A stretch of DNA of 64,000 bases from Terricaulis silvestris (GTDB taxonomy: Bacteria > Pseudomonadota > Alphaproteobacteria > Caulobacterales > Aquidulcibacteraceae), in NCBI RefSeq assembly GCF_009792355.1, contig NZ_CP047045.1:2878501-2942500 (forward strand), in the 5' to 3' direction. Shown in pieces: positions 7,442 through 41,642 of the stretch (the stretch's first letter is position 1; each line of letters opens with the position of its first letter). The notes under the pieces are model-generated. The model made no database searches. It had not been told where the DNA came from and saw only the letters and a list, made by a program, of their open reading frames with translations. The position numbers and the translations under genes are program-made.

Positions 7442-7444
7442 GAA

Positions 7445-7637: not shown

Positions 7638-8129
7638 ATGCCCGTTTCCGCCGACCCAGATCCTCTCTGGCCGCCGACCGATCCGCTGACCGCCTCGATC
7701 CAAGCGCGCCTCTTCGCACTTTCGCGCTTGATCGACGCCGAGATCAGCCGCATCGCATCGGAAAACGGCTTGAACCCCGGTGAACTCGTCATTCTCGGCG
7801 CGCTGAAACGCATGGGTCCGCCACATCAGAGCACGGCAAGCGATTTGTTGCGCCTGCATTGGGTCTCAATGCCGGGGCTGATGAAGCAATTGGCGCGTCT
7901 TGAGGAACAGGCTCTGGTTCAGCGTGAGACTGATCCGGAGGATCGCCGGCGGACGCTCGTTCGCCTAACACGCAAGGCGCACGGCCTGTTCTCAAGGCTT
8001 GAACGCCGCCCTCAGGACCGCCTGTTCACCGCCATATCGAGCCTTCCCTTGGAGACCCGTCGGCGCATCCACGGCGCATTGGGCGAGCTCATGGACATCG
8101 CGCGGCCAGAGCTCAGAAAAGACGACTGA
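7638..8129 (+). CDS. MarR family transcriptional regulator
   Basis: A 163-residue winged-helix protein. The helix-turn-helix core spans about residues 48-90 (NPGELVILGALKRMGP, then STASDLLRLHWVSMPGLMKQLARLEEQALV) followed by the wing DPEDRRRTLVRLTRKA, the standard MarR arrangement. MarR proteins are dimeric repressors, often released by phenolic or acyl-CoA ligands. Its place after the OYE-GMC-aldehyde dehydrogenase genes and before the sulfation operon makes either a target. It lacks an obvious strong ribosome-binding site. Confidence 0.88.
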   Translation: MPVSADPDPLWPPTDPLTASIQARLFALSRLIDAEISRIASENGLNPGELVILGALKRMGPPHQSTASDLLRLHWVSMPGLMKQLARLEEQALVQRETDPEDRRRTLVRLTRKAHGLFSRLERRPQDRLFTAISSLPLETRRRIHGALGELMDIARPELRKDD

Positions 8130-8238: not shown

Positions 8239-9033
8239 ATGCTGGACAAGCTTGTCGATATCGCGCTGGAAGCCGGCGCCGCGATCATGAGAATCTATGC
8301 CTCCGAGACGGTCGCGGCGCGCAGCAAGGACGATGGCTCGCCCGTCACCGAGGCCGACGCGACTGCTGAAGCCATCATCCTGGCGCGGCTCCATGAGCTC
8401 AATCCCGAAACGCCCATCATCGCCGAAGAAGAAGCGTCCGCCGGGCGTGCGCCCATCGCTGCAGCGCGATTCTTTCTGGTTGATCCGCTCGACGGCACCA
8501 AGGAATTCCTCAGTCGCAACGGAGATTTCACCGTCAACATCGCGCTGATTGAGAACAATCGGCCAGTGTGCGGGGTCGTCTATGCTCCAGCGCACGGTGT
8601 GATCTATGCCGGCGCCGAAGGCGACGGCGCACGCAAGGCGATCGTGGCAGAAGGCGCCGCACTCGACTGGCGACCCATCGAAGCACGCAATCCGCCGCAG
8701 GCCGGGCTGGCTGTTGTCGCCAGCCGCTCGCACATGTCCGAGGAGACGCACGCTTTCGTTGGGCGCTTCTCCGTTGCGAATCTTGTTCCTGCCGGATCAT
8801 CTCTGAAGTTCTGCCGCGTAGCTTCGGGCGAAGCCGACCTTTACCCACGTCTGGGCCGCACCATGGAGTGGGACACCGCCGCTGGCGATGCCGTCCTGCG
8901 CGCGGCGGGCGGACAGGTTTGCACCATGGACGGGCAGCTGCTTCGCTACGGCAAACGGCTGCAAGCCTCGGATGTGGACTATGCCAATCCGTGGTTCGTA
9001 GCGGCCGGCCGCTTCAATCCGTTTCAGGCCTGA
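8239..9033 (+). CDS. cysQ: 3'(2'),5'-bisphosphate nucleotidase CysQ
   Basis: A 264-residue inositol-monophosphatase-fold enzyme that removes the 3'-phosphate from PAP, the by-product left when PAPS donates its sulfuryl group. Metal-site motifs: EADATAE near residue 38, AEEEAS near 64, and [10 protein letters not shown] near 83, the DPLDGTKEF form being characteristic of CysQ; a second metal ligand region lies at [10 protein letters not shown] near 212. First gene of a compact operon with cysD (17 bp gap), cysNC (overlap), a sulfotransferase (21 bp) and a DUF1254 gene (overlap), which fits PAP clearance during sulfation. Confidence 0.93.
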
Positions 9034-9050
9034 GGCGCTGGAGGATGAGC

Positions 9051-9998
9051 ATGCCGCGCAGCTTTGCCGCTCACACCGAAGCGCCTTCGCCCTCCTCCGC
9101 GCGGCTGACGCATCTACAGCGCCTTGAGGCCGAGAGCATTCACATCATGCGCGAAGTGGCCGCCGAGGCCGAGAAGCCGGTGATGCTCTACTCGATCGGC
9201 AAAGACAGCGCGGTCATGCTGCACTTGGCGGCGAAAGCATTCTACCCATCGCCCCCGCCGTTTCCCCTCCTGCATGTCGACACGACGTGGAAATTTCGCG
9301 CGATGTACGAGATGCGCGAGCGCGTGGCGAAGGAACTGGGCTTTGAGCTCCTCGTCTACAAAAACCCGGACGCCGTCGAAAAGAACATCAACCCGTTCGA
9401 ACACGGCTCGGCCTTGCACACGCAGATATGGAAAACCGATGGGTTAAAGCAGGCGCTCGATAAATTCGGTTTCGACGCCGCCTTTGGCGGCGCCCGCCGC
9501 GACGAGGAGAAGAGCCGCGCCAAGGAGCGCATCTTTTCCTTCCGCTCGGCCAATCACCGTTGGGACCCCAAGAGCCAACGGCCCGAACTATGGCGCCTCT
9601 ACAACGCCAAGAAGCACAAGGGCGAGTCGATCCGCGTCTTTCCGATCTCGAACTGGACCGAACTCGACGTCTGGCAATACATTCACCTTGAGAACATCCC
9701 GATCGTCCCGCTCTATTTTTCCGCCACGCGCCCGGTCGTTCGTCGCGATGGCGCACTGATCATGGTCGATGATGAGCGCTTTCCGCTTAAGCCCGGCGAG
9801 GCGCCGGAGCTGAAGAAGGTGCGCTTTCGCACCTTGGGCTGTTACCCCCTCACGGGCGCCGTCGAAAGCGAAGCCGAGACGCTTCCGGCCATCATCCAGG
9901 AAATGCTGCTGACGACGACCAGCGAGCGACAGGGGCGGGTCATCGACCACGACCAGGCCGCTTCGATGGAGAAGAAGAAGCAGGAAGGCTATTTCTGA
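9051..9998 (+). CDS. cysD: sulfate adenylyltransferase small subunit CysD
   Basis: ATP sulfurylase subunit 2, about 315 residues (E. coli CysD has 302), which with CysN makes APS from sulfate and ATP. Seen: the PP-loop-like [17 protein letters not shown] near residue 45, [16 protein letters not shown] near 78, [20 protein letters not shown] near 145 and [15 protein letters not shown] near 201. The GGAG at 9041-9044 sits 6 bp before the ATG at 9051, so I prefer this start over the ATG at 9045. The TGA overlaps the start of cysNC (TGATG), so the two are translationally coupled. Confidence 0.95.
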
Positions 9999-11893
9999 TG
10001 GCCCACGTTTCCCAACTCATCGCAGAGGACATCGACGCCTATCTTCATCAGCATCAGCACAAGTCGCTGCTGCGCTTCATCACCTGCGGCAGTGTCGATG
10101 ATGGCAAATCCACCCTGATCGGGCGCCTCCTCTACGATTCGAAGATGATCTTCGAAGATCAGATGGCCGCGCTCGAGGCGGATTCCAAGAAGGTCGGGAC
10201 GCAGGGCGGTGAGCTCGACTTTGCCCTTCTTGTCGATGGCCTTGCCGCCGAACGCGAGCAAGGCATCACTATCGACGTCGCGTATCGTTTCTTCTCCACC
10301 GACAAGCGGAAGTTCATCGTCGCCGACACGCCTGGCCACGAACAATACACCCGCAACATGGTCACCGGCGCCTCCACCGCTGACCTCGCCGTCATCCTGA
10401 TCGATGCGCGCAAGGGCGTGCTCACGCAAACGCGCCGGCATTCGTATCTCGTCTCGCTCATGGGCATCCGCCATGTCGTGCTCGCCGTGAACAAGATGGA
10501 CTTGGTCGATTGGTCGAAGGACGTCTTCGACGCCATCGTTGCGGATTACACGGAGTTCGCGCACCGGATCGGTCTAAAGGACGTCCTCGCGATCCCGATC
10601 TCCGGTTTGAAGGGCGACAACATCGCCGGAACCAGTGACGCCTCGCCGTGGTATTCAGGTCCGACGCTGATGCAGCATCTCGAAGATGTCGAGATTGATG
10701 AAGAGCGTCGCGCCACTGAAGCGTTCCGCATGCCGGTGCAATGGGTTAATCGCCCCAATCTCAATTTTCGCGGCTTCTCAGGTCAAGTTAGGAGCGGACG
10801 CATCAGGCCGGGCGATCGCATTCGCGTAACGCCCTCGGGCGTGACCAGCGTTGTAGCGCGCGTAGTCACCCAGGCCGGCGACCTGACCGAGGCTGTTGCG
10901 GGTCAATCCGTTACGCTCACTCTGACGGACGAGATCGATTGTTCTCGTGGCGACGTGATCGCAGATGCCAGTGATCCACCTGAATGCTCGGATCAGTTCG
11001 AAACGACATTGATCTGGATGGCGGAGGATCACCTCCTGCCCGGGCGCCCCTACTGGCTCAAGATCGGCGCAAAGCTGGTTTCGGCGCAGATCACGGACAT
11101 CAAGTACAAGATCAACGTCAACACGCTCGAACACCTCGCGGGTAAGGTGCTTGAACTCAACGAGATCGCCATCTGCAATATCAGCCTCGATCAGCCCATC
11201 GCGTTCGATGCCTACGAGCGCAACCAGGACATGGGCGGCTTCATTCTGATCGACCGGATGACAAACGCGACGGTCGGCGCTGGCCTCATCCACTTCGCGC
11301 TGCGCCGCGCTCAAAACGTTCACTGGCAGGCGCTCGATATAACGCGCGAGTCTCGCGCAGCGCTGAAGGCGCAGCATCCCGCTGTGCTCTGGTTCACGGG
11401 CCTCTCGGGCGCCGGCAAGTCCACCATCGCCAATCTCGTGGACAAAAAGCTCAGTTCGCTCGGGCGCCACACCGTCCTTCTCGACGGAGACAATGTCCGC
11501 CACGGCCTCAACCGTGATCTCGGTTTCACGGATGCCGATCGCGTTGAGAACATCCGGCGTGTCGCCGAAGTCGCAAAGCTCATGGCGGATGCCGGTCTGA
11601 TCGTGCTTGTCTCGTTCATCTCGCCGTTCCGCGCCGAGCGGCGGATGGCGCGAGACCTGATGAACGACGGGGAGTTCTTTGAGGTGTTCATCGACACGCC
11701 GCTCGCCGAGGCGGAGAAGCGCGACGTCAAGGGTCTCTACAGGAAGGCGCGCGCCGGCCAGCTGAAGAACTTCACGGGCGTCGATAGTCCGTACGAAACT
11801 CCGGAGACGCCGGAATTTCATGTCGATACGACGAAAACAGCGCCCGCAGATGCGGCCGCCGCGATTGTCGACGCGCTCGTCGGCGCGCCCTGA
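9998..11893 (+). CDS. cysNC: bifunctional sulfate adenylyltransferase subunit 1 / APS kinase CysN/CysC
   Basis: A 631-residue fusion. The N-terminal GTPase (CysN) has G1 [10 protein letters not shown] at 31-40, [12 protein letters not shown] near 110 and NKMDLVDW near 165, followed by EF-Tu-like beta domains to about 440. The C-terminal part is APS kinase (CysC) with P-loop GLSGAGKST at 468-476, [15 protein letters not shown] near 501 and [14 protein letters not shown] near 540. Together it drives APS synthesis and phosphorylates APS to PAPS. This fusion is common in proteobacteria. No cysH or sulfite reductase is present in the window; the next gene is a sulfotransferase, so a role in PAPS supply for sulfation is likely. 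Confidence 0.95.
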
Positions 11894-11914
11894 TGCAAAA
11901 TTAGGAGCGGCCCG

Positions 11915-13174
11915 ATGCTTCGCGACCTACCTCTTCCGCCACCTGAAGCGCTGACGGCGCGGGCGCGAAGCAACGCCTATCCAGAGTTTTCCAAGGCCGC
12001 GCAACGGCTCTTGGAAGACGCCACCCAGCATCCGCGACCGCCCCTTGATGCCGAAAGGCTCGTAGCGACTGCGCGCGGCCAAACTGGCCTTTCGGAATTT
12101 GGCGATGGGCCGCTTGAAGAGCCGCTTGCAATCCTTTGCCGTTCATTGAACGACGAAGTCGAGTTGCATGCTTTGGGCGCTCAATATGCGCATCGCCAAT
12201 TGCTGGGCCTTTTGACGACGCGCCTCCGGCTCATGGATTTATGGCGGAAACATCCAGAGATCCTCGAAATCCCGATCGAACGGCCGATCATTGTGATCGG
12301 GTTGCCACGCAGCGGCACGACGATCCTGCACAAGCTCTTGGGTCATGACCCGATACGGCGTAAGTCGCCGTTCTGGGAACAGGTGATGCCATTGCCGATC
12401 GCAGCCGCGCCGGAGTCCGGGCCTGACCCTCGCATCGCCATCGCTCAAGCGTCGATCGACACGCTTTATACCCTGGCGCCCGAGTTTAGATTGGCGCACG
12501 AGATCACCGTCGACGAGCCTGACGAAGACATCATTCAGCTCACATATGGCTTTGCCTCAAAGCAGTTCGAATGGAGCTACGTCGTCCCATCCTTTGTTCG
12601 CTGGTACCGCGAGGCGGACCACACCATCGGATACCAGTGGTTCAGGCGCATCCTGCAAACATCGCAGTGGCTGCGGCCGGGCCCGACACGCTGGGTGCTC
12701 AAAGCGCCACAGCATCTTGAGCATTTGGAAGCGCTGACAGCCGCATTTCCAGACGCAGTCTTGGTGCAGACGCATCGCGATCCAACCGACGCGATCATTT
12801 CGCTCGCAAACATGACCTGCTGCGGCCAGCGCCGCTACTTTGATCATCCGAACCCGCATTTCGCTGGCCGCAATATGGCTGACATCATCGAACGCATGCT
12901 CAGCAGGGCTGAGGAGACCCGACCGCGCCTCAACCAGCCTGTCATCGACGTTGCGTTCGATGATTTCCGACGGGATCAGATGGGGTGCGTCAAGCAGATC
13001 TATGATGTCGCCGGAGACACTCTGAGCCAAGGCGCGGAACGGCGTATGTCCACCTGGATCGCCGAGAACCAGCTGAACAAACACGGCAAGCACGAATATG
13101 CCGCTGAAGATGTCGGACTCGATCTCGACGCGCTACGGCGGCGCTTCGATTTCTATCGCCATCGCTACACATGA
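11915..13174 (+). CDS. PAPS-dependent sulfotransferase (Sulfotransfer_3-like), copy 1
   Basis: A 419-residue sulfotransferase. The 5'-phosphosulfate loop VIGLPRSGTTILHKLL is near residues 127-142 and the 3'-phosphate motif THRDPTDAIISLANM near 288. The N-terminus carries QTGLSEFGD (near 56), a relative of TGLSDWGD found in both other sulfotransferases of this window, so the three are paralogues. It would transfer sulfate from PAPS to a hydroxyl of an unknown small molecule. AGGAG lies 7 bp before the ATG; the gene starts 21 bp after cysNC and overlaps the next gene by 4 bp, so it belongs to the PAPS operon. Confidence 0.88.
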   Translation: MLRDLPLPPPEALTARARSNAYPEFSKAAQRLLEDATQHPRPPLDAERLVATARGQTGLSEFGDGPLEEPLAILCRSLNDEVELHALGAQYAHRQLLGLLTTRLRLMDLWRKHPEILEIPIERPIIVIGLPRSGTTILHKLLGHDPIRRKSPFWEQVMPLPIAAAPESGPDPRIAIAQASIDTLYTLAPEFRLAHEITVDEPDEDIIQLTYGFASKQFEWSYVVPSFVRWYREADHTIGYQWFRRILQTSQWLRPGPTRWVLKAPQHLEHLEALTAAFPDAVLVQTHRDPTDAIISLANMTCCGQRRYFDHPNPHFAGRNMADIIERMLSRAEETRPRLNQPVIDVAFDDFRRDQMGCVKQIYDVAGDTLSQGAERRMSTWIAENQLNKHGKHEYAAEDVGLDLDALRRRFDFYRHRYT

Positions 13175-14562
13175 CGGATGGGCAGCACGCCATGACAGGC
13201 CAGGTTGATCCCTCGCTGAGCGATGCCGAAGTTGCGGAACTCGCCGAGGAAGCATACCTCTACGCCTATCCGATGCTGGTGGCGTACGGCTTCTTCCATC
13301 GCCAAGTGGCGGGACCGGCCGCGCCAGAACGGCAAGCGTTCAACCGTTTCACGCACTTCCGTGAGCTCGCGAGCCCTGCACTCAACAACACCATCCCATG
13401 GGTGAACACGGACACGCTCTACTCGGCAGTCTGGCTCGACCTTCGCGCCGAGCCCTTCGTGCTCACCAATCCCGCGTTCGAGGATTTCCGCTTTCACGAC
13501 ATTCAGGCGAACGATTGGTACACGATGTGCTTCGTCACGCGCGGCACGCGTGATGTCGGCAATGGATCGCGCACCTATCTCATAGCGGGTCCCGATTGGA
13601 CCGGACCGAAGTCAGATTTCGTCGATGAAGTGATCAGCGCCGAAAGCTCGATCGTGAAGCTCTTCGTTCGCGTCGTGGTCGAGAACGACGGCGATGTCGC
13701 GGCGATCCATCGGCTCCAAGATCAGTACGACCTGCGGCCGCTCAGCGCCGTGCTCGGTGAACCCACGCCGGCAGCAACACTTCTCAACCTGCCGTCGCCC
13801 GAATCCGCCTTGTTTGAAGGCGGCTTCTATGAATGCCCCACGCCGGCGTTTATACGCGTCTTCAACGCCCTGATGATTGTAGCGACGATCCATCCTAGCG
13901 AGCGAGATTTGTTCGCGCGCTTCGCTCGCATCGGCGCGACGCCGGGCGCGGCGTTCGATGAAACTGCACTGCGTGAGCATCATGTCGCGGCGATCATGCG
14001 CGGCATTGGCGCGGCGCGCGCAAGAATCACCAAGCGGCTCGCTCATCTCGGCGACCCCATCAATGGATGGACATACCCCCTCGACTTGCGCGGCGGGCGC
14101 GACGTGCTCGCCGGCAGCACGCGCGCGTTCGAGTGCCGCGCCGTCCTTGCGAAATACGCCATATGGGGTCCGCCGGCCGAGGAAGTGGTGTACATGAATT
14201 GCGACGTTGATGCCGACGGCGCGTTGCTCAACGGCGCCGATGCTGCGTACACCTTGCGCTTCGATGGCCCGGTCCCCGCGAAAGGTTTCTGGTCCTTCAC
14301 GGTCTACGACGCGGAAACGCGGCTGCTCTCGCCGCATCCAAGTGGCCGCTACAAACGCGGCGATCGCGATCGCGACATGGTGCGCGCCGGCGACGGCTCG
14401 CTCACACTCTATCTGCAGAACCAACCGCCGGCGCCGGATCGGCAAGCGAATTGGCTGCCGATTCCGCTTAAGGGCTTTCAAGTCGTGGCGCGCCTCTACT
14501 GGCCAACGCCGGACGTGCTTGATCTATCCTATAAGCCGCCACCGATCGTGCGCGTGCGCTAG
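13171..14562 (+). CDS. DUF1254/DUF1214 domain protein
   Basis: A 463-residue protein with the DUF1254 N-terminal pattern (EEAYLYAYPMLVAYGF near residue 25, then NTIPWVNTDTLYSAVWLDL near 74) and a C-terminal DUF1214 beta-rich part (KGFWSFTVYDAETRLL near 371, ending with YWPTPDVLDLSYKPP). The biochemical function of this family is unknown to me. It has no signal peptide, unlike many DUF1254 proteins, so it is probably cytoplasmic. It starts inside the sulfotransferase stop codon (ATGA), which makes coupled translation and joint function likely; the same partnership recurs at 39076-41631. Its stop overlaps that of the convergent epoxide hydrolase by 4 bp (CTAG). Confidence 0.85.
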   Translation: MTDGQHAMTGQVDPSLSDAEVAELAEEAYLYAYPMLVAYGFFHRQVAGPAAPERQAFNRFTHFRELASPALNNTIPWVNTDTLYSAVWLDLRAEPFVLTNPAFEDFRFHDIQANDWYTMCFVTRGTRDVGNGSRTYLIAGPDWTGPKSDFVDEVISAESSIVKLFVRVVVENDGDVAAIHRLQDQYDLRPLSAVLGEPTPAATLLNLPSPESALFEGGFYECPTPAFIRVFNALMIVATIHPSERDLFARFARIGATPGAAFDETALREHHVAAIMRGIGAARARITKRLAHLGDPINGWTYPLDLRGGRDVLAGSTRAFECRAVLAKYAIWGPPAEEVVYMNCDVDADGALLNGADAAYTLRFDGPVPAKGFWSFTVYDAETRLLSPHPSGRYKRGDRDRDMVRAGDGSLTLYLQNQPPAPDRQANWLPIPLKGFQVVARLYWPTPDVLDLSYKPPPIVRVR

Positions 14563-15710
14563 CGCAGCGACCGAAAGGCCTCCGTGACGTCCGCGGCGAA
14601 AGCCTCCGGTTCTTCGAATGCAGCAAAGTGACCGCCGGACTTCATCTCCTCCCAGCGCGTGATGTTCCAAACGCGCTCAGCGACACTGCGAGGCGGGTGC
14701 GGCAGGAATTCAGCGGGATAAAGCGCGCAAGCTGTGGGCACATTCACTCTCAATCCTGCGTGCTCGCCGCGCCGTACTTCCATGGCCGCGCCGACATAAG
14801 ACCAAATCATCGACGTCACGGCGTCATTGGTCAGGTGGATCATCAGATTGGTGATCAATTGATCCTTGCTGAAGCGGGTTTCGATGTCGCCCCGGGTATC
14901 GCCCCAGCCATGGAATTTCTCCAGCACCCAGGCCGCATACCCCATCGGGGAGTCGGAGAGCGCGATGGCGATCGTCTGCGGCTTGGTCATGTGCAGCATC
15001 ATGTACGCCGAGGCCTGGCGTTGCACCGCCTCGAACCGTGCGCGCCATTCGCGTTCCTCGGCGCTCATCTGTTCCAGTGCGATTGCCGGAGGCACGCACA
15101 AATTGAGGTGTATCCCCGCGACCTCCGGCGCCGTGGCGCCAAGCCAGGATGTAACGGCGCTACCCCAGTCGCCGCCTTGCGCCACGAAACGCGTGTAGCC
15201 TAGCGCCTCGACCATAAGTTTGTGCCAAAGGCTCGCAACGTAGCGTGGGCCAACGGGCGTCGCGGGCCGTTGCGAGGGCCCATATCCGGGCAGAGACGGC
15301 ACGATGACATCGAACGCGTCGCGCGGATCTCCACCGAAACGCGCCGGATCGCTCAGCCGCTCGATCGCGCCAAAGAATTCGTAGGTCGAGCCGGGCCAGC
15401 CATGCGTGAGGATCAGCGGCAACGGCGACGGACCCTTGCCGCGGATGTGGTAGAAATGCACATCCAGGCCTTCGACGTTCGCCTTGAATTGCGGGAAGCG
15501 ATTGAGTTCGGCCTCCGCCGCGCGCCAGTCGTAGCGTTCTAGCCAATAGGTGACGAATTCCTTGAGATATGCCACGTCAGCGCCGTAGCGCCAATCGCCG
15601 TCATCGGTGGGCGCGTAGGTGAAATGCGCCGCTGCCAGTTTGCGGTGAATTTCGTCCAGCCGGACTTGCGACGTTTCAATGCGGAACGCGCGGACCTCGA
15701 TCGCACCCAT
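14559..15710 (-). CDS. epoxide hydrolase family protein
   Basis: A 383-residue alpha/beta hydrolase with the N-terminal EHN domain (residues 5-110) found in microsomal-type and limonene/juvenile-hormone-type epoxide hydrolases. Oxyanion motif HGWPG at 103-107, nucleophile Asp181 in QGGDWGSAV, and a C-terminal GGHFAAFEEPE containing the catalytic histidine. It would open an epoxide to a diol, in keeping with terpenoid or steroid oxidation. It is the second gene of a minus-strand pair, 9 bp after the DUF1214 gene, and ends in a 4-bp stop overlap with the gene on the other strand. Confidence 0.9.
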   Translation of the reverse strand: MGAIEVRAFRIETSQVRLDEIHRKLAAAHFTYAPTDDGDWRYGADVAYLKEFVTYWLERYDWRAAEAELNRFPQFKANVEGLDVHFYHIRGKGPSPLPLILTHGWPGSTYEFFGAIERLSDPARFGGDPRDAFDVIVPSLPGYGPSQRPATPVGPRYVASLWHKLMVEALGYTRFVAQGGDWGSAVTSWLGATAPEVAGIHLNLCVPPAIALEQMSAEEREWRARFEAVQRQASAYMMLHMTKPQTIAIALSDSPMGYAAWVLEKFHGWGDTRGDIETRFSKDQLITNLMIHLTNDAVTSMIWSYVGAAMEVRRGEHAGLRVNVPTACALYPAEFLPHPPRSVAERVWNITRWEEMKSGGHFAAFEEPEAFAADVTEAFRSLR

Positions 15711-15719
15711 GCTGCTCCC

Positions 15720-16940
15720 TCAGATGCCGAACCGGCGCAGCACAGCCTTCGCTCGCCGATGAATGATCTCACGGCGCTGTGCGGGCGTCACCACGGGTGT
15801 ATCCGCGGGCAAGTGTTCACGTAGTTCCGCGAGCTTGACTTTGCGCGCCGTCGGCATCGGATGACGATCGGCCACGTACCAGCGCCACTGAAACACTCCA
15901 GTGCCATTGTCGACCGTGTCGATCCAATTCGGCACGCCGGGATCTTTCCGCGCGATGACAATGCGGGCCTTGCCGTCCGCATCGAGCTGCGCCTGATGAC
16001 CGTTGAGCGAACTCTGATGGTAGGCGTAATCCACAGTCTGAAAGAACGGATCGGCCACCTGCACGCTCCAGAAGCGAGCGTTTGGAATCTCGCTTTCGCA
16101 GATGATCGCCTCGTCCTCTTCAAGCTCGAACACGATCTTCGGATAAACAGCGCGCGGGTTGCCGCCGACATTCTTTGTCTCAGCCATGTTTTCCGCCCAG
16201 AAAGTGTTCTTGTCGCCACCTTCGGCCAGAATGCGATCCACGAGCTTCAAAAAGAAATCGACGGAGAACTTAGTCAGGAAGCCAATCGCCTTCACGCGCC
16301 GCTCCACTTCGGCCTGGCTGAGCGCTACCGGCTCATTCGCGTCCCGATCGAGGCATTCGATATGAATGTCGATGCCCTTCTCGTTTTCCCAATCGTACCA
16401 AGCCTCGCGCAGCATCACAGTGATGTTCGGCGCGGCGGGATCGAGTTCGATCCAATTGCCATCGTGTCTTTTGGGCGAGGCGATGATCTCGAAGCTGCCG
16501 TCCGCGGCGATGTTGAAATCGTCGAAATCCCAGGTTCCGAGATTGGATTGGTTAGCGTCGCCCCAGAAGCCGCGTTGCGCCTGCAGTTCAAGCCAGCGCG
16601 TGCTGCCCACTTTTCCCTTCAGCCGATAGGTTTTCGAGCCGTCGACAAACGTCCAGCGATAGTGGAAATCGGGGCACGGCGCCCCGAAGCCGGACTCGAA
16701 CGGCAAGAAGATCGTCTGCATGTAGAAATGCGGATAACGCTGCCGCGGCGCCATGTAGACGCTAAACCCGAACGCTTGCAGCATCTGGATTAGGTACTGC
16801 GCCTGCGCGCACCCGACAGGGTCATCGGCCCAACGCGAATTGAGCACCAGCGCGCGCGCTTCGTCGATTGTCGTCAAATAGTCTTCCCACACCCGCTGCG
16901 ATGTGGCGGTCGCGAACTTGGGCGTGGGCGAAAGGTTCAT
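15720..16940 (-). CDS. DUF1214-like protein, copy A
   Basis: A 406-residue protein of a family without known reaction. It aligns by eye with the 39076-40446 product: both have a PRQxYPxFYxxxxF block (near 74), WxxLQAQ/WVNFQAF followed by GNxNxxxLGxWDxDxF (near 130), a Glu-rich ELEEDEAIICE/EIEPEEALIFE segment, WSVQxxD (near 314), and DPGxPNWxD (near 353). These correspond to the DUF1214 region of DUF1254-type proteins. No signal peptide with the ATG at 16940; an ATG at 16973 would add eleven residues. It precedes the epoxide hydrolase and probably shares its transcript. Confidence 0.75.
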   Translation of the reverse strand: MNLSPTPKFATATSQRVWEDYLTTIDEARALVLNSRWADDPVGCAQAQYLIQMLQAFGFSVYMAPRQRYPHFYMQTIFLPFESGFGAPCPDFHYRWTFVDGSKTYRLKGKVGSTRWLELQAQRGFWGDANQSNLGTWDFDDFNIAADGSFEIIASPKRHDGNWIELDPAAPNITVMLREAWYDWENEKGIDIHIECLDRDANEPVALSQAEVERRVKAIGFLTKFSVDFFLKLVDRILAEGGDKNTFWAENMAETKNVGGNPRAVYPKIVFELEEDEAIICESEIPNARFWSVQVADPFFQTVDYAYHQSSLNGHQAQLDADGKARIVIARKDPGVPNWIDTVDNGTGVFQWRWYVADRHPMPTARKVKLAELREHLPADTPVVTPAQRREIIHRRAKAVLRRFGI

Positions 16941-17095
16941 GTCTGGCGCTCGAGTGATTGGCCGGGCAAGCACATTAAGGCACGGCCTCGCAACGCCAAG
17001 CGCCGTCTCAGTTGTTCATCGCGGATACGATGGCTCTGCTCGTCCGCTCTGCTTATGCGTCGTCGCGCCTACACTGTGGCGAGGAGACCTAAAGC

Positions 17096-19390: not shown

Positions 19391-20551
19391 TCAGCGTTCC
19401 TTGCCGACGTTGAAGTCGGCGTAATAGTCCGCATAAACACGGTCAATTTGCGCCAGGTCGAGTCCGAAATCGGGCAGAGCGTAGGCGTGCTTCGGCCCCT
19501 TTGCGTGCGACGCGCGGTCGGCTTCCATCCACGCGCGGATGGCGGCCTCGCGCTGCGGTGAAAACGAAATGCCGAACTTCTGATAGCAGCCGCGGAACAC
19601 GGCGAGCGGATCAGCTTGCACGTCGAGATAGTGCGCGTCGTAGAAGCGCTCGGCCATGCCCGGACGCTTGCGCATCGCCGCCAGCTTGCGCAGCCCTTCG
19701 GCTTGATGCTCCATCATGCCGAAGTCGCTTGGTTTCACGTTGCCTGAAAACGTGCTGCGCCAGACGGTGAGGTTATTCGAGAGCGATGGAATGATCTTGG
19801 CCGGATCGCGGTGGCACTGCACGAACAGCGCATCGGGAAACACCGCGATCAGCTCATCCATCCAAGCGATGTGCGCGGGCGTCTTCAGCACCCAACGGTC
19901 GCGCCGGCGTCGCGATTGCAGCAATTGGAGCAATTGCCGCTCTTCCTGATACACGCCGGTGAAATCGACGCTGTAGAGCAGCTTCGTGTAGTTCGGTACG
20001 TTCCACCACGCCGCATAGTTTACGGTGAGGAAAGAAAGCTCCCAGAGGAAATTGCACTCCTCTGGTCGGAGCGCGTCAAACGGATGAATGGCCAGGAGCT
20101 CGGGCGCCATGAAGCCTTCGAACGCCATCGCTTCCGATGCACGTGCGATACGGGGGTCGGTGTCGAAACTCTCCTCCTCCGGCGGCGGAGAGGGATACAT
20201 GATCTCCCACGTGAGCGGCGAACGGTTCACGGGATCGGCGCTCAGCATATTGTGAAAGAACGTGGTGCCTGCGCGCGGCAGGCCGATCACGAAGATTGGA
20301 CGCTCGATCTTCTCCTTGGCGATATCGGGAAAGCGCTTGCGGTCCTCGGTTGTTTTGAGGCGCATGCAGAGATTGTCGAACAAGCGCCGGTGCGCGCGCT
20401 CGGCGCCGAGCGGCGTCAGGTTCGCGATGGTGTTGAGATCGTCGATCAGAACCTCGAACGGTTCGCGAAATAGACTGTCCCCCCAATCGGAAAGACCAGT
20501 CGCGGCTTGCGCCGTGCGCATCATCGCCGCTGCCGGAGGGAGTTCTTTCAT
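19391..20551 (-). CDS. PAPS-dependent sulfotransferase, copy 2
   Basis: A 386-residue sulfotransferase paralogous to those at 11915 and 40462. Shared marks: TGLSDWGD at 18-25, the PAPS 5' loop VIGLPRAGTTFFHNML near 88-103, then DPVNRSPLTWEIMYPSPPP, and the 3'-phosphate motif CHRDPAKIIPSLSNN near 255. It also has RWVLKTPAHIAWMDEL near 225, the KxPxH strand common to this group. Last gene of a minus-strand run that begins with a sulfatase and SDRs, 16 bp after the ferritin-like gene. Confidence 0.88.
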   Translation of the reverse strand: MKELPPAAAMMRTAQAATGLSDWGDSLFREPFEVLIDDLNTIANLTPLGAERAHRRLFDNLCMRLKTTEDRKRFPDIAKEKIERPIFVIGLPRAGTTFFHNMLSADPVNRSPLTWEIMYPSPPPEEESFDTDPRIARASEAMAFEGFMAPELLAIHPFDALRPEECNFLWELSFLTVNYAAWWNVPNYTKLLYSVDFTGVYQEERQLLQLLQSRRRRDRWVLKTPAHIAWMDELIAVFPDALFVQCHRDPAKIIPSLSNNLTVWRSTFSGNVKPSDFGMMEHQAEGLRKLAAMRKRPGMAERFYDAHYLDVQADPLAVFRGCYQKFGISFSPQREAAIRAWMEADRASHAKGPKHAYALPDFGLDLAQIDRVYADYYADFNVGKER

Positions 20552-20567: not shown

Positions 20568-21392
20568 TCATGTCGGCTCGGTTTCGTATTGGGTGAGGTA
20601 AGGCCCGACGCCTTCGGGCGCCCGCGTGTTCGCCGGATTGTAAGTGGGTGAGAGAACCTTCAGCAGTTCGGGGATCGCCTTCTTGCCGGTTGTCTTCGCG
20701 AACTCTTTCTCGCGCGCAATCGACGCCTCGCGCTCGGCCGCGGACATGCGCTCACGATCCTTGCCGAGCAAGTACGCGCCAACGCGCTTGCCATAGCCTA
20801 TCAAATGCACGATCGCGAATAGGAAGCCGTAAGCGCGATAGAGCCAGCCGTTCAGCAGGTCGTTCTTACCATAGAGCTTCTGGTAAATTTTGAACGCGAC
20901 CTCGCGGTGTTCGTACTCCTCAGCCATGTGCCAGCGCCAAAGGTCAACGGCGTCCTGGTCGGCGCCTTCGAGATATTTGTTGTAGGCGTCGAACCACATG
21001 GTCGCGCCAAGCGCCCCCATGGCTTCGAAGCCGTCGGCGTACGCCAGATTGAACTTCAGAGATTTGGTCTCGAGAAAACGGGTAAGATCAGCGTCGAGCT
21101 TGGCTTCGTGATCTGCAAGCTCCGGATAACCCGATGAACGCAGGCGTTCGTTGAACGCATTATGCTGTTTGCAGTGCTGAGCTTCCTGCTTGATGAAGAT
21201 CGCTAGTCCGCGGTGCAGCTCGGTCTCGCGCGGATCGAGGACGGCTTTGGCCTTCAGCATCACCTTCACGAGGTAGGGTTCTACGTACGACGGTATGGTC
21301 GAGCTTGCGTTGGCGCGCTGGACGAACTCGATGTGCGGCGCCCAGTGCGGGCGTATCTTCGAGAAGTCCATCTTGGGGTAGCGGACCTTCAT
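20568..21392 (-). CDS. ferritin-like metal-dependent hydrolase family protein (PF10118-like)
   Basis: A 274-residue, mostly helical protein. Two carboxylate-histidine sites are visible: EAQH at 70-73 with a further His77, and AEEYEHREVAF near 158-167, with Glu123 (GFEAMGA) between them, the layout of a di-metal ferritin-like bundle. This matches the family called predicted metal-dependent hydrolase, whose real reaction is not established; a di-iron oxygenase-like role is possible. The ATG at 21392 gives the family start MKVRYPKMDF. It sits directly before sulfotransferase copy 2 and 91 bp after an SDR gene. Confidence 0.8.
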   Translation of the reverse strand: MKVRYPKMDFSKIRPHWAPHIEFVQRANASSTIPSYVEPYLVKVMLKAKAVLDPRETELHRGLAIFIKQEAQHCKQHNAFNERLRSSGYPELADHEAKLDADLTRFLETKSLKFNLAYADGFEAMGALGATMWFDAYNKYLEGADQDAVDLWRWHMAEEYEHREVAFKIYQKLYGKNDLLNGWLYRAYGFLFAIVHLIGYGKRVGAYLLGKDRERMSAAEREASIAREKEFAKTTGKKAIPELLKVLSPTYNPANTRAPEGVGPYLTQYETEPT

Positions 21393-21483
21393 GTTCCCGG
21401 CTCCATCGGTCGGCGAAGCCCTATCGTATCGCGCGCTAAGTCGCTTGCCGACGCTGCGGCGCACTCATCGCCCCAGCGATGAG

Positions 21484-23956: not shown

Positions 23957-26296
23957 TCAAACTCGACGCGGCGGCCGCAGCGCCGACGCGATCTCCTCCG
24001 GCGTGTAGGGCGAGTTGTCGAGGTCGATGATCACCGAACGAATGGCGCCGCGAAACTCGAATGGTCGCTCATACGCCTTGCTCGTCGGCGTCGAACCATT
24101 GCGGCCGATCTGTAGCCCTTGCATGGCTCGACCGAACAACAAAGGTTCGTGGTGCTGACGGATGAGGCTGCGATCATCTGCGAAGAGTTCGACCAAACCC
24201 TGCCATGGCCGCGATGTCACCTCGTGCCGAAGGACGATCCTGGATGCGCCGACGGGCGCGGGCGCTTCGGTGCGCAGCGAACGCGGCAAGCATGAGAACT
24301 CATGGACGAGCTTGCCGCCTTGCAGATAGAGCACGCAACCGAGAAACACGTTGCCTGACGCGAGAAGCACGCCGTCTTGGCCGGCGCGCAACGGCGCTTG
24401 CAGCACGATCTCGATTGTATGGGAGCGGCCGACGAGAGCGGGCGCTGCTTCTTCCGGGATCAAGTCGATCGGGGGTGTGAGCACCCACCGCGAACGTTCG
24501 CCGCCGCGAAAGAACGGGCCCCACGACTTTTCCTTGATCGTGCGCGTGTCGATCGGAAAGACGTCATAGCGGTGAGCGGCCTGGATCCAGCGCTGCTCTA
24601 GCTCGGCCACCTTTTCCGGGTGCGCGGCGGCCACATCTTCCAGTTCGTTGCAGGCCTCGGCGAGATTGTAGAGCTCCCAGCCATCGCCCTCCTGCCGAAA
24701 CGGCGCTTTCGACACCAGCCGCCACCCTTCTGCGTACATTGCGCGCGTGCCGTTGAGTTCGAAGTGCTGCGCGGTTCTCGTCTCCGGCGCCTCCGCGCGA
24801 GCGAATGTCGGGCTAAAATCGATTCCTTGGATCGACTTGGCGGCACGCCCGTTTCTCGCCTCCAGCGGCCGAACTCCAGAGCAGGCAAGGATGGTCGGAA
24901 GGACATCGCTGACATGCGCGTATTGCGGGCGTACTTCGCCGCGAGCCGCAATTCCGCGTGGCCAATGCACGATCAGCGGATCGGCAACGCCGCCGAGATG
25001 GGTATCATGCTTGTAGGACCGAAACGGCGTGTTCGACGCCATCGCCCATCCCATCGGGTACATGGGATAGGTGCCCGGGCCGCCCAGCTCGTCGATCAGC
25101 GGCAACACTTCGGCGAGAGGCACGCCTCCGACTCCGGACGCCAACAAGTTGGGCGTCCCGGTCAATGCGCCGTCGGGCGAACCACCATTGTCCGAGATCA
25201 GCATGATCATCGTGTTGTCGAGCGCGCCCGTCTCGCTGAGCGCCGCGATCAGCCGGCCGATGTTCGCATCCAAGCGTGCGACGACCGCTGCGTAGAGTTC
25301 CATGTAGCGGCTGTAGAGACGGCGTTGGTCGGGCGACAATTCACTCCACGCCGCGACACCCCGGTTGCGGGGCGGCAAGCGCGTGTTTGGCGGCACGACG
25401 CCCAACTCGATTTGACGCGCGAGGCGCGCCTCTCGCGCATGGTCCCAGCCTAGCTCGTATCTGCCCCGCTGCGCGGCGATATCTTCCGGCGTGGCGTGCA
25501 AGGGCGAGTGCGCGGCGGCGTGAGCCAAAGAGAGGAGGAATGGACGGCCATCGGCCACCGCGGCGTGCTCGCGCAGGTAGCGGATGGCGTTGTCAGTGAA
25601 CGCATCCGTGGCGAAGTACGACTGGTCTGAAATTTCTACGCGCTGATTTCCATCGTAGACGTTGGACGGCTGATAATAGTGAAGCGAGTGACCTTGAAAC
25701 CAATGCGCGCGCTGATAGCCGCGCTGCAACGGCCAGTTCTCAAACGGTCCCACCGCGGTCGCTGACGCCTCGGCGTTCACGTGCCACTTGCCACAATGAT
25801 AGGCCAAATAACCGTGCGCGCTGAGCGTCTCCGCCAACGTGATGGCGTCCGCGGCGAGATCGCCGCGATAGCCGGGATAGCCCTCATCGGCGAATGTCAG
25901 CCAGCCAAGACCGGCGCTGTGCGGATTGAGGCCGGTCAGCAAGCTCGCGCGTGTTGACGAGCACACGCCCGTCGTCCGGAAACTGGTGTAGCGTAGGCCG
26001 CCCGAAGCCAACGCATCCATCGCCGGCGTGGCGATCTCGCCGCCGTAACAACCCAGATCTGAGAAACCCACATCGTCGAGAACAATAACGACCACGTTCG
26101 GTGCGCCCGCAGGCGCGTCGCGCTCACGCGCGAAGTTCGGTGCCGACTCATCGAACGTCGCGCCAATACGGCCCTGAAATGTTTGCTCCTGGGCGACGCC
26201 GGCGGCGCAGGAGGCCGCGCCAGCGCCGCCCAATGTCAGCGCGCCCGTCAACGCTGTCCGCCGCGATATGCCGGAATGCGAACGACGCTTGGGCAT
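23957..26296 (-). CDS. exported arylsulfatase-family sulfatase
   Basis: A 779-residue formylglycine-type sulfatase that would hydrolyse a sulfate ester. The N-terminus has a twin-arginine signal (SRRTALTGALTLGGAGAASC, near 9-28) ending in a possible lipobox cysteine, so it is likely exported folded and perhaps membrane-anchored. Metal ligands VLDDVGFSDLG near 75; the modified cysteine is Cys112 in GVCSSTRASLLTG; HCGKWH near 161; SDNGG near 370. The usual CxPxR reads CSSTR, so Pro/Ala is replaced by Ser. The C-terminal 200 residues form an extra domain common in such arylsulfatases. Start at 26296 has GGAGAG upstream. It follows a TonB receptor gene with a strong terminator between. Confidence 0.92.
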   Translation of the reverse strand: MPKRRSHSGISRRTALTGALTLGGAGAASCAAGVAQEQTFQGRIGATFDESAPNFARERDAPAGAPNVVVIVLDDVGFSDLGCYGGEIATPAMDALASGGLRYTSFRTTGVCSSTRASLLTGLNPHSAGLGWLTFADEGYPGYRGDLAADAITLAETLSAHGYLAYHCGKWHVNAEASATAVGPFENWPLQRGYQRAHWFQGHSLHYYQPSNVYDGNQRVEISDQSYFATDAFTDNAIRYLREHAAVADGRPFLLSLAHAAAHSPLHATPEDIAAQRGRYELGWDHAREARLARQIELGVVPPNTRLPPRNRGVAAWSELSPDQRRLYSRYMELYAAVVARLDANIGRLIAALSETGALDNTMIMLISDNGGSPDGALTGTPNLLASGVGGVPLAEVLPLIDELGGPGTYPMYPMGWAMASNTPFRSYKHDTHLGGVADPLIVHWPRGIAARGEVRPQYAHVSDVLPTILACSGVRPLEARNGRAAKSIQGIDFSPTFARAEAPETRTAQHFELNGTRAMYAEGWRLVSKAPFRQEGDGWELYNLAEACNELEDVAAAHPEKVAELEQRWIQAAHRYDVFPIDTRTIKEKSWGPFFRGGERSRWVLTPPIDLIPEEAAPALVGRSHTIEIVLQAPLRAGQDGVLLASGNVFLGCVLYLQGGKLVHEFSCLPRSLRTEAPAPVGASRIVLRHEVTSRPWQGLVELFADDRSLIRQHHEPLLFGRAMQGLQIGRNGSTPTSKAYERPFEFRGAIRSVIIDLDNSPYTPEEIASALRPPRRV

Positions 26297-26310
26297 GGCG
26301 CGGTCTCTCC

Positions 26311-26350
26311 AAAAAAAAGCCGCCGCGCCCGGGAGGGAGGGCGCGGCGGC
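26311..26350 (-). terminator. rho-independent terminator after TonB receptor
   Basis: On the minus strand a perfect 12-bp GC-only stem (26339-26350 with 26319-26330) with an 8-nt loop is followed by eight T residues (26318-26311). It lies 26 bp after the TonB receptor stop. The sulfatase start codon is only 14 bp beyond the T-tract, so sulfatase expression needs read-through or a promoter inside the hairpin region. Confidence 0.92.
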
Positions 26351-26375
26351 CGATATCGGCGTTTGGCCGAGCGCC

Positions 26376-28637
26376 TTATTCGCCGCCGAAATTGTACCGG
26401 AGCCGAACGCCGTACGTGCGCGGTTCGGCATCGACAACGGCGTTCACAGTCGTCACCGAGTTCTGGAAGTACGGATTCACGTACTCATTGTCGAAGGCGT
26501 TGCGCACCCAGGCCGAAAGATCGACGCTGGAGCCGAAAACCCCGTTCCATTCCGCAGTGAAGTCCACCAAGTCGTGCGCCTCCATCCAGTGAATGGCGGG
26601 ATTGAAGGAGTCGCTTCCGCTATATCGATCTTGGTGGAAGAAGCTCACGCCGACATTCGCCTCCCCGAGTGAAGGATCAATCGGCAAAGTCACGATCGCA
26701 GATGCGCTGGAGATGTTTCGCGGCGCGCGCGAGAACGGGTTTCCGGACAAGTCCACGTTCCCGGGCGGCGGCCCGATGAACTCGAGGAAGTCAGAGTCGG
26801 TGTAGGCGTAGAAGCCGCTGAACTCCAACCAATCCGTTGGCCTCACCAGGAACTCGAGTTCGATACCCTGAATTTCGGCTCGACCCGCATTCCATGTGAC
26901 CGTGGTGGGTGGGACCGTCAACGCCGTCAGCAAGCGCTGAATGTCGGTGTATTCGGCGTGGAAGATCGCGACATTCGTACGCACGAATACACCGCCGATA
27001 TCCCAGTCCGACTTCATCCCGAACTCGTAGTCTGTCACCAATTCCGGCTCAAAAGCGTCCCGCAGCGTGGCCTCCGTGCCGCCGCGCGCACCGAAACCGC
27101 CACTGCGATAGCCGTGGCGCGTCGCCAGGTAGAACATCAAATCGTCGGTCGCCTGATATTGAACCCCCAAATTGTAGGTTGGCTCTTCAAAGCTCGCTTC
27201 GAGGTTCAGCTGGCAGCCGGCGAGGCCTGGGTTGATTTCAGGCGTTGCCGTGTTGTTGTCGTGGTCCACCGTAAAGCGGCACGTCGCGGCGGTGCGATTC
27301 CTGACATAGGCGTCGCGCTCATCATGGTTGAATCGCGCGCCCACTGTCGCCGACAGACCAGCGAGGATGGCATCCAATTCGAAATTGCCCTCCGCGAAGA
27401 TCGCCCAACTGGTGTTGCTCCCGCCAACCCAAGTGTCGCTGAAGGCCGGGAGATCTCGCAGATCCTCGAAGGTTTCCAGGACGCCATCTGCGGCGGGATT
27501 TGCGGCGCCGGCGCCGGAGCCCGCGCTCAACCCTTGATCATCGCCCTTCTCACGGAAATAGAAGCCGCCGAAGATGACATTGCCCCAGTCGTAGTCGAGC
27601 TGAAGCTGGAGTTCGTTCGAGACTTGGTTTTGCTCCGTCACCCGTTGAATCGTCAGATAGAGCACATCGCTGCCGTCGGTGTCCTCCAGCGTGTTATTTT
27701 GCAGCTCCCGATAGCCGGCGATGTTCTTGAACGTCACGTGCTCGTTCAATTCCAGCGTAGAAATATTCTCGAAGCTGAAGACATCGATCTCGCTGCGTGC
27801 GTTGACGAGGCCGCTGCGCGTTTCATGGCGCCCGTGCGCAAATGGCGTGCCGGCGCCCGTGCGATTGTACCCGCCCGTTCCGCCATTGTCGGATGTGGCG
27901 GACATTACCGTGAACAGCGAGTTGAAGCTGTCGGTCGGATGGAAGTCGAAACCGACACGGAAGGCCCGCTCGTCAACGCTATTGATCTCGTTGCCCGTCA
28001 CGAGGTCGGTGATGTAGCCGTCGCTTTGGTTCCACATGCCCGCGACGCGAATGCTTGCGGACCCGTCCAGCGGCACGTTGATGAAGCCTTGCGTTTCGTA
28101 GGTCCCGAAATTGGCGGCGGATTGCGAAATCGCACCTTCGAAGTCGCTGGTGGGCGCCGCAGGCGTCACCAGAATGGCGCCGCCGACAGTGTTGCGGCCG
28201 AACAGCGTGCCCTGAGGCCCGCGTAGCACCTGCACATTCGCCGTATCAAAAAAACCAAGGTTCGCCCCGATGGGGCGTGGCACAGGGACTTCATTCACGT
28301 AGAGCGACACCGACGGATCCGACAGCATTGTCAGATCTTGCTGGCTCAATCCCCGGATCGTGAACACGGGCGTCGAACGACCCGAGCCGAGCCCATTGCT
28401 GACTACGAGGTTCGGCACCGAGCCGTTCAGGTCCATGATGTTGGTAATGCCTTCGCGCTCAATCTGCTCAGCGCCGAGGGCTGACACCGCGAGCGGGACA
28501 TCTTGGATGTTTTCCTCGCGACGCCGGGCTGTAACGACGATTTCGCCTTCTGTTGTTTGGGCTTCGGCGATGGCGGGGGCCGCCAGGCTCAAAACCGTTG
28601 TCGCCCACAAGAGCGCTCGCTTCGCACCAATCTTCAT
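26376..28637 (-). CDS. TonB-dependent outer-membrane receptor
   Basis: A 753-residue outer-membrane receptor. Signal peptide at 1-27 (MKIGAKRALLWATTVLSLAAPAIAEAQ), TonB-box-like EIVVTARRREENIQDVPLAVSAL directly after it, plug domain to about residue 160 (VQVLRGPQGTLFGRNTVGGAI), then a beta-barrel ending YGVRLRYNFGGE. The style (VVTARRREENIQDVPLAV) is that of sphingomonad/caulobacter receptors used for uptake of hydrophobic carbon sources rather than siderophores. GGGAGG lies 11 bp before the ATG. Divergent from the ligase module at 28799, and upstream of the sulfatase, so it may import a sulfated or hydrophobic substrate. Confidence 0.93.
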   Translation of the reverse strand: MKIGAKRALLWATTVLSLAAPAIAEAQTTEGEIVVTARRREENIQDVPLAVSALGAEQIEREGITNIMDLNGSVPNLVVSNGLGSGRSTPVFTIRGLSQQDLTMLSDPSVSLYVNEVPVPRPIGANLGFFDTANVQVLRGPQGTLFGRNTVGGAILVTPAAPTSDFEGAISQSAANFGTYETQGFINVPLDGSASIRVAGMWNQSDGYITDLVTGNEINSVDERAFRVGFDFHPTDSFNSLFTVMSATSDNGGTGGYNRTGAGTPFAHGRHETRSGLVNARSEIDVFSFENISTLELNEHVTFKNIAGYRELQNNTLEDTDGSDVLYLTIQRVTEQNQVSNELQLQLDYDWGNVIFGGFYFREKGDDQGLSAGSGAGAANPAADGVLETFEDLRDLPAFSDTWVGGSNTSWAIFAEGNFELDAILAGLSATVGARFNHDERDAYVRNRTAATCRFTVDHDNNTATPEINPGLAGCQLNLEASFEEPTYNLGVQYQATDDLMFYLATRHGYRSGGFGARGGTEATLRDAFEPELVTDYEFGMKSDWDIGGVFVRTNVAIFHAEYTDIQRLLTALTVPPTTVTWNAGRAEIQGIELEFLVRPTDWLEFSGFYAYTDSDFLEFIGPPPGNVDLSGNPFSRAPRNISSASAIVTLPIDPSLGEANVGVSFFHQDRYSGSDSFNPAIHWMEAHDLVDFTAEWNGVFGSSVDLSAWVRNAFDNEYVNPYFQNSVTTVNAVVDAEPRTYGVRLRYNFGGE

Positions 28638-28667
28638 AACCGTACTACCTCCCCTGAGCCCGGCTAG

Positions 28668-28682: not shown

Positions 28683-28798
28683 GCTGTATGTAATTCCGTG
28701 GCGAGTGTGACGCTCTTCTTTGCGGCGGCGGTTTTCAATATGCCCTGCTTCGTTATCGCCGGTGCGATGTATGCCCTGATCGCCCTTGGCCTTTTCTG

Positions 28799-41631: not shown

Positions 41632-41642
41632 GTTCGGCGCCG

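Follow-up and report, generated by a model that had tools for sequence, protein, structure and literature searches.

A predicted sulfation operon with its own PAPS supply and a DUF1254/DUF1214 partner in a catabolic gene cluster of Terricaulis silvestris

The operon and its closest described counterparts

Bacterial operons that make 3'-phosphoadenosine 5'-phosphosulfate (PAPS) for a sulfotransferase of their own are known from Sinorhizobium (NodP-NodQ-NodH, acting on Nod factor) and Xanthomonas (RaxP-RaxQ-RaxST, acting on RaxX). Here we describe a related locus of Terricaulis silvestris. At positions 8239-14562 of the window (the whole 64,000-nucleotide stretch that was analysed, 2878501-2942500 of a single 3.86-Mb contig), five collinear, tightly packed genes on the plus strand encode CysQ, CysD, CysNC, a PF13469 sulfotransferase (ST1) and a DUF1254/DUF1214 protein. 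As in the Nod and Rax systems, a dedicated CysD/CysNC is linked to a PAPS sulfotransferase beside a housekeeping assimilation set: ATP sulfurylase and adenosine 5'-phosphosulfate (APS) kinase share one gene run with the sulfotransferase, and this run is distinct from the assimilation genes of the genome. Unlike those systems, the operon lies in a catabolic setting, includes CysQ, uses a short-type PF13469 sulfotransferase and has a DUF1254/1214 protein behind it. A PAPS-plus-sulfotransferase operon is already a known kind; new in this one are its location among catabolic genes, its cysQ and its DUF1254/1214 partner. We favour, with some reserve, the explanation that the operon is a self-supplied, PAPS-fed sulfation module inside a catabolic cluster, in which the DUF1254/1214 protein is a partner enzyme acting on a sulfated intermediate with sulfate as leaving group.

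Sulfation is usually seen as terminal conjugation or biosynthetic decoration. According to two papers on curacin CurM and the olefin synthase sulfotransferase-thioesterase (ST-TE) pairs, sulfation there creates a leaving group and a second enzyme expels the sulfate (PMC6274090, PMC5408033), and sorghum LGS1 provides a further precedent for sulfation making a leaving group (PMC8713700). CurM resembles the window operon in pairing a sulfotransferase with a second enzyme, sulfate expulsion being a proposal in our case. It differs in being embedded in a polyketide synthase (PKS), with a beta-hydroxy acyl substrate bound to a carrier and a thioesterase as second enzyme, whereas ST1 stands alone and is followed by a DUF1254/1214 protein; the window operon does not hold an olefin-forming pair of the CurM/Ols ST-TE type. 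In Planktothrix, a type I PKS (L101, 2638-10170) has an ST1-subfamily sulfotransferase domain at its end, and hardly any space is left there for another domain.

Two further comparisons come from the degradation of hydrophobic compounds. In Sterolibacterium, a 25-hydroxysteroid kinase phosphorylates a tertiary steroid alcohol, after which a separate, still unknown lyase carries out the elimination, as described in PMC8449060, whose text contains no word starting with "sulfo". The operon proposed here would likewise activate an alcohol during degradation of a hydrophobic substrate and leave elimination to a separate enzyme, the transferred group being sulfo instead of phosphoryl. A Mycolicibacterium plasmid (L043, 7974-10966) carries a sulfotransferase, a short-chain dehydrogenase/reductase (SDR) gene and a hypothetical gene in what we take to be the order of Rv3529c-Rv3530c-Rv3531c. 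What this trio, in a steroid-linked setting, has in common with our locus is the sulfotransferase subfamily, an adjoining SDR gene and a catabolic context; it differs in having no PAPS genes beside it in L043 and in its third gene, which we considered as a DUF1214 relative and rejected, profile comparison detecting no such relation. Rv3529c-Rv3530c-Rv3531c are listed among cholesterol genes (PMC6429209) and a KstR motif is placed upstream of Rv3531c (PMC1995591).

The genes of the operon, with the regulator in front of it, are as follows.

7638..8129, plus strand: MarR-family regulator (PF12802, 40.8 bits), 109 bp upstream of cysQ on the same strand
8239..9033, plus strand: CysQ, 3'(2'),5'-bisphosphate nucleotidase for removal of 3'-phosphoadenosine 5'-phosphate (PAP) (TIGR01331, 298 bits, equivalog cut-off 229)
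9045..9998, plus strand: CysD, ATP sulfurylase small subunit (NF009214, 553 bits, cut-off 413; TIGR02039; scores are for the portion from 9090 onward)
9998..11893, plus strand: CysNC, fusion of the ATP sulfurylase GTPase subunit and APS kinase (NF004035, 1079 bits, cut-off 715)
11915..13174, plus strand: ST1, PAPS-dependent sulfotransferase of 419 residues (PF13469, 110 bits, curated cut-off 27)
13171..14562, plus strand: DUF1254 plus DUF1214 protein, large form, partner of ST1 (PF06863 and PF06742, 117 and 103 bits)

These coordinates and curated-family scores agree with an earlier sequence-only reading, which had described a five-gene run with small gaps or overlaps and had named CysD/CysN, a CysC domain, a sulfotransferase and CysQ. 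The most likely cysD start, judged by eye, is the ATG at 9045, behind GGAGG and 11 bp past the end of cysQ; cysD and cysNC overlap by 1 bp, cysNC and ST1 are separated by 21 bp, and ST1 and the DUF1254 gene overlap by 4 bp. CysNC contains a complete APS kinase domain (PF01583, residues 461-610), and the last protein exceeds the cut-offs of both its domains, the small-form partners described below having DUF1214 only. The MarR-family gene is probably the regulator of the operon. A scan of 7400-14800 gave no sigma-70-like promoter and no terminator above the level of shuffled sequence; one 13-nt palindrome lies upstream of marR (7593-7612).

Besides its score, ST1 has an intact set of residues (R132, G134 of a P-loop-like motif, K263, H287, R288 and S296) that are invariant in 39 aligned sequences, the window's three included, and that we take to be PAPS-binding. 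Its only matches among solved structures at E-values up to 0.01 are 2z6v (E-value: 5e-45) and 2zq5 (E-value: 3e-43), presumably the mycobacterial Stf enzymes. All three PF13469 matches of the genome lie inside the window. A PF00685 search of the genome found none, though it was insensitive, since the weak PF00685 match of ST1 itself was also missed, and other sulfotransferase families were not searched.

Three ATP sulfurylase sets were found in the genome: the window operon, a lone cysD-cysNC pair at ~452 kb, and an assimilation locus at ~2.977-2.986 Mb, 34-43 kb past the window end (2.9425 Mb), with cysH and cysI at ~2.983-2.986 Mb. The assimilation run comprises a sulfite reductase, a DUF934-CysH fusion, CysD, CysN, a tetrapyrrole methylase, TauE and a PALP (cysteine-synthase-like) gene. 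Its CysN has no CysC/kinase domain, and its CysH carries CCxxR, CxxC and ECGLH motifs, which we take to be the APS-reductase pattern; sulfate reduction would therefore need APS only, and cysNC of the window is not needed to feed assimilation. A second cysDN set for assimilation, proposed as a check by the sequence-only reading, is thus present, and the operon is not the genome's only cysD/cysNC. That reading had also noticed the lack of reductive steps (CysH, CysIJ), and the family searches bear this out: PF01507, common to CysD and CysH, matches only cysD in the window, and no sulfite-reductase family was found among the 40 window proteins scanned (gene calling gave 52 genes). The operon is accordingly not a sulfur-assimilation locus with linked CysH and CysI.

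CysD of the window shares 90% identity with the lone copy and 50% with the assimilation copy, and for CysNC the values are 83% and 44%; CysNC of another genome of the genus (G002) is as close as the lone copy (84%). In a CysNC tree the window copy falls inside the clade of its own genus, next to the lone copy (moderate support, 87/85), and sulfotransferase-linked copies from sphingomonads group with sphingomonads (100/100). The lone pair (L005, G000:C1, ~451-454 kb) adjoins a FAD oxidoreductase and a PrsW protease.

Recurrence of the sulfotransferase, its partner and the PAPS genes

Each of the three PF13469 genes of the window has a DUF1214 gene on its own strand, and of four PF06742 matches in the genome three are in the window. 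For other genomes, pairs were counted by means of profiles made from the proteins of the window and relatives of these. Among the matches listed, most class-wide PF13469 proteins differ in length from ST1 and are presumably TPR-type sulfotransferases; because another length dominates, the locus counts were built on hits to the ST1 protein. Of 27 sulfotransferase loci in the genus and class, 12 have a DUF1214 gene on the same strand no more than 300 bp away, and 15 have one on either strand at up to 2.5 kb. The 27 comprise all 21 foreign places of the ST1 search and six of G002 and G017, leaving out the fragment G002:C145 and hits weaker than E 1e-30; L073 and L074, taken from the PF13469 list instead of the ST1 search, are also left out, and as both are DUF1214-adjacent the count with them is 14/29. 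In another order, that of the genome G493, the same-strand gene within 300 bp was found at 39/60 loci (one locus per genome, for the 60 best-scoring of the 83 genomes that gave a hit; G493 and G566, with L112 and L113, are counted apart). By hits instead of loci, 40/61 in this order have an adjacent DUF1214 gene, always on the same strand, 34 times upstream and six times downstream.

Chance adjacency of these families would be a few percent at most, by estimate and not by computation, and the recurrence counts confirm that the pairing is more than chance. The sequence-only reading had placed a sulfotransferase beside a DUF1254-type partner in the window alone, and this pairing is now seen to recur. 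Related species were counted singly, which makes independence lower than the counts suggest. PF06742 gives 0-9 matches per genome in 18 genomes of the genus and class, a model that misses divergent members; for example, it finds none in G002, where our own profile finds two. As a control, no DUF1214 hit was found within 2.5 kb of cysNC in 17 CysNC-centred loci (L075-L077, L079-L092). The Pfam DUF1214 model exceeded its cut-off for six partners outside the window in one check, for one in a second and for two of three in a third. A 745-residue frame in L154 and L155 was considered as a DUF1214-sulfotransferase fusion and rejected, the DUF1214 part sitting in another frame.

PAPS genes also join the pair repeatedly in other lineages, so the tie between PAPS supply and sulfotransferase that had been suggested from the window holds more widely. 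In Novosphingobium KACC 22771, cysD, cysNC, a cysQ-like gene, a sulfotransferase and DUF1214 form a single run. Paraburkholderia sprentiae WSM5005 has, in order, an alcohol dehydrogenase (ADH), DUF1214, a sulfotransferase, a VOC-family gene, cysQ, cysD and cysNC, near LuxC, MarR and ecdysteroid-kinase-family genes. In Sphingomonas paeninsulae a sulfotransferase and an SDR face a cysD-cysNC-cysQ run. In a 398-genome sample of the phylum, all three loci outside the class (L112-L114) have a sulfotransferase, DUF1214 and cysD-cysNC together; over the six new loci of that sample, cysD-cysNC is present in three and DUF1214 in four.

In the order sample the supply is of another kind: a stand-alone CysC lies within 1.5 kb at 14/60 loci, accompanied in nine of these 14 by Sat, an enzyme unrelated to CysD/CysN. 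Pfam and NCBIfam confirm examples of these calls. DUF1214 is adjacent in all 14 CysC loci, versus 25/46 others (Fisher p 0.001). The PAP-removal candidates differ as well: CysQ of the window type, distant CysQ copies in KACC 22771 and P. sprentiae (106 and 76 bits, below the TIGR01331 cut-off), and, in L112-L114, a DHH-like protein. DHH enzymes of the NrnA type are known to act as PAP phosphatases, and by sequence the DHH-like protein is a candidate stand-in for that function. It is a DHH-like phosphoesterase at 7059-8072 of L112, 3079-4038 of L113 and 7052-8884 of L114, loci in which no CysQ was found; DHHA1 is above cut-off in L112 only and below it in L113, L114 has no Pfam match in the given frame, and NCBIfam gave no useful name. 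Because the counts lack full independence, functional coupling is better argued from the two unrelated ATP sulfurylases and the up to three types of PAP-removal candidate.

The closest syntenic relative, L021, is a contig of a metagenome-assembled genome (MAG; G441) labelled Hydrogenophilaceae. It carries ST1, DUF1254, epoxide hydrolase, DUF1214, ST2, a PF10118 hydrolase, two SDRs and a TonB receptor in window order, at 59-87% identity to the window proteins. The only APS kinase match of this MAG is a cysD-cysNC pair on another contig, and its cysQ was not located. The gene-order conservation that the sequence-only reading had proposed as a check therefore holds in L021 for ST1-DUF1254 and fails for cysQ-cysD-cysNC beside them. 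The supply genes look recruited, because this relative keeps the ST1-DUF1254 pair with cysD-cysNC elsewhere; the histories of the sulfotransferase block and of the PAPS block are separate, and either the two came together in the lineage of the window or they came apart in L021. CysNC of the MAG (L045) groups with the window's genus (99/97), for which reason the Hydrogenophilaceae label or the binning of G441 may be wrong.

Proposed function and competing explanations

In the reaction sequence that we propose, CysD and the CysN part would make APS, which the CysC part would turn into PAPS. ST1 would transfer the sulfo group onto a hydroxyl of a small hydrophobic intermediate, and CysQ would destroy PAP, otherwise an inhibitor of ST1. 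The sulfated intermediate would then be the substrate of the DUF1254/1214 protein, a dedicated partner enzyme likewise in the cytoplasm: no signal peptide was seen by eye in the 13171-14562 protein, and it should therefore share the compartment of ST1. The last step would most likely be loss of sulfate by elimination or substitution, sulfation having activated a poor leaving group, and the free sulfate would go back to CysDN. Sequence comparison shows the gene families, the intact PAPS-site residues, the separate assimilation genes and the recurrence of the pair and of the PAPS supply; the substrate class, the action of DUF1254 after ST1 and the leaving-group step are what we infer. The suggestion of the sequence-only reading, that PAPS is made here to sulfate a catabolic intermediate and that DUF1254 acts on the product, is thus supported in part. 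Because the family that travels with the sulfotransferase is DUF1214 and not a sulfatase, a specific follow-up reaction on the ester is the simplest reading. PAPS synthesis costs about three ATP equivalents; in return for such an outlay on a compound under degradation, the cell would obtain a handle or else a leaving group. The catabolic surroundings described by the sequence-only reading were recovered in the family scan (acyl-CoA ligase, epoxide hydrolase, SDRs, acyl-CoA dehydrogenases, thiolases, enoyl-CoA hydratases, a CoA transferase and a TonB receptor); an OYE-family enzyme, a GMC oxidoreductase and an ALDH were named from translations.

A narrower form of the proposal, to which we give about one chance in four, is that DUF1254/1214 proteins are a new sulfo-lyase class that expels sulfate from the ester made by the sulfotransferase, giving an alkene, an epoxide or a rearranged product, while enzymes of the operon itself would recycle sulfate and PAP. 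D102, W174, R189 and R364 (numbering of the 15720-16973 protein) are kept in all 69 sequences of the small DUF1214 family, and R189, R364 and D102 would then be sulfate-binding and catalytic residues. Small and large DUF1214 profiles are weakly related (probability 48), the solved relative of the 13171-14562 protein, 3u07, is uncharacterised, and a literature search found no function for DUF1254/DUF1214. The predicted structure of the small form has a mean pLDDT of 60, from only three sequences. Pairing with a sulfotransferase gives this widespread family a concrete, testable partner and substrate class. If true, a self-supplied sulfation step within gene clusters for degradation would give sulfation a new role, at an ATP cost like that of the kinase step for the tertiary steroid alcohol. 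The recurrence of the gene combination in other bacteria suggests sulfate as a working handle in degradation and not as a nutrient. Nothing to the point emerged from literature searches on sulfotransferases in gene clusters for steroid degradation, on PAPS in catabolic clusters or on sulfated biodegradation intermediates.

Several observations weigh against a dedicated sulfation module. First, the PAPS genes are often not adjacent: cysNC is beside the sulfotransferase in 0/27 genus and class loci, and cysD and cysQ in 0/60 loci of the order sample. Among the matches listed, and taking the best place per record only, 3/15 plasmid records with an ST1 relative and a cysD/cysNC have them within 2 kb (KACC 22771, P. 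sprentiae and S. paeninsulae), the far-apart records being Sphingobium herbicidovorans and 11 Sphingobium Tom records. Upstream of ST1 in L021 lies an AMP-binding (acyl-CoA-ligase-like) gene in place of cysQ-cysD-cysNC, and in G002 these three stand together, with a tRNA-Arg gene behind them and then the end of the contig, and no adjoining sulfotransferase that far. Second, the partner is not universal: 21/60 loci have no small DUF1214 within 300 bp (one of them has DUF1214 5.3 kb away and one a large-form DUF1254/1214 gene 0.7 kb away), and 12/27 genus and class loci have none in the fetched stretch, some loci being cut by contig ends. Third, no PF13469 gene lies near the lone cysD-cysNC at 451 kb, which points to other or redundant uses of PAPS. 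Fourth, a Foldseek search with the small DUF1214 model matched 6ans, 3u07, 3vb9 and 2p3y, all uncharacterised, followed by matches of low TM-score. Finally, given the nearby sulfatase, sulfate esters could simply be cleaved.

This last point leads to an explanation that we consider possible but rather unlikely: sulfation would serve as a handle or trap that makes a hydrophobic intermediate of steroid or terpenoid type soluble, lowers its toxicity and keeps it in the cell, with a sulfatase removing the group at the end and the DUF1254/1214 protein being another catabolic enzyme that happens to accept sulfated substrates. The neighbourhood is of the kind seen for hydrophobic substrates, a sulfatase lies inside the same window, and the many paralogs (up to seven PF13469 genes per genome among the matches listed; at least four ST1 relatives in many genomes, four being the number scored) fit broad conjugation. 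However, that sulfatase seems to be an exported enzyme and has no counterpart at this position in L021, and conjugation alone leaves DUF1214 beside the sulfotransferase in 39/60 loci unexplained. Biosynthesis of a sulfated product (a lipid, signal, exopolysaccharide or secondary metabolite) in the manner of Nod factor, with incidental catabolic neighbours, has precedents in NodPQ-NodH, RaxPQ-RaxST and the Planktothrix PKS, but is improbable here: no PKS, non-ribosomal peptide synthetase, glycosyltransferase or acyltransferase family was found among the 40 window proteins scanned, and the neighbours recurring elsewhere are ADH, SDR, acyl-CoA dehydrogenase and TonB genes. Arrival of an ordinary duplicate copy of the sulfate-activation genes next to a sulfotransferase unrelated to them would fit the close identity to the lone copy and the lack of these genes at the corresponding place in L021, but is highly improbable, as the reductive genes have their own, divergent CysD and CysN and an APS-type CysH, and other lineages have this combination as well, in some cases with non-homologous PAPS enzymes.

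Other features of the window

Further genes downstream of the operon are listed below; the sequence-only reading had been silent on ST2, ST3, the two small DUF1214 genes and the sulfatase.

14559..15710, minus strand: epoxide hydrolase, conserved neighbour (PF06441; 84% identity in L021)
15720..16973, minus strand: DUF1214 protein, small form (PF06742, 47 bits), directly downstream of ST2 in L021
17096..19387, plus strand: SDR oxidoreductases, three listed reading frames between the preceding DUF1214 gene and ST2 (the first by PF13561/PF00106, the other two by their translations)
19391..20551, minus strand: ST2, second PF13469 sulfotransferase (124 bits)
20568..21464, minus strand: PF10118 predicted metal-dependent hydrolase, conserved neighbour (87% identity in L021)
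23957..26437, minus strand: sulfatase (PF00884, 166 bits), with a twin-arginine-like leader and a CSSTR active-site-like motif, both seen by eye
26376..28886, minus strand: TonB-dependent receptor (PF07715; 59% identity in L021)
39076..40446, minus strand: DUF1214 protein, small form (PF06742, 37.6 bits), 15 bp downstream of ST3
40462..41721, minus strand: ST3, third PF13469 sulfotransferase (117 bits)

The DUF1214 gene paired with ST2 lies 2.4 kb downstream of it, with the opposite-strand SDR genes between; these SDR frames are absent from the L021 block, where the counterpart pair is 15 bp apart. The sulfatase gene overlaps the TonB receptor gene, and L021 has the receptor and no sulfatase at the corresponding place. 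The sulfatase may release sulfate from an imported sulfated substrate, and is possibly related to the sulfation module.

At 30906-33259, an APH-family phosphotransferase gene is followed by an acyl-CoA dehydrogenase gene, an arrangement reminiscent of phosphorylation-elimination of hydroxyacyl-CoA; genes of both families also occur near the sulfotransferase-DUF1214 pair in L073 and L147. At 52705-55541, a LuxC-type acyl-CoA reductase gene lies behind a gene for a protein with no Pfam match. LuxC, MarR and APH genes are thus all present in the window, and P. sprentiae likewise has LuxC beside its sulfation genes.

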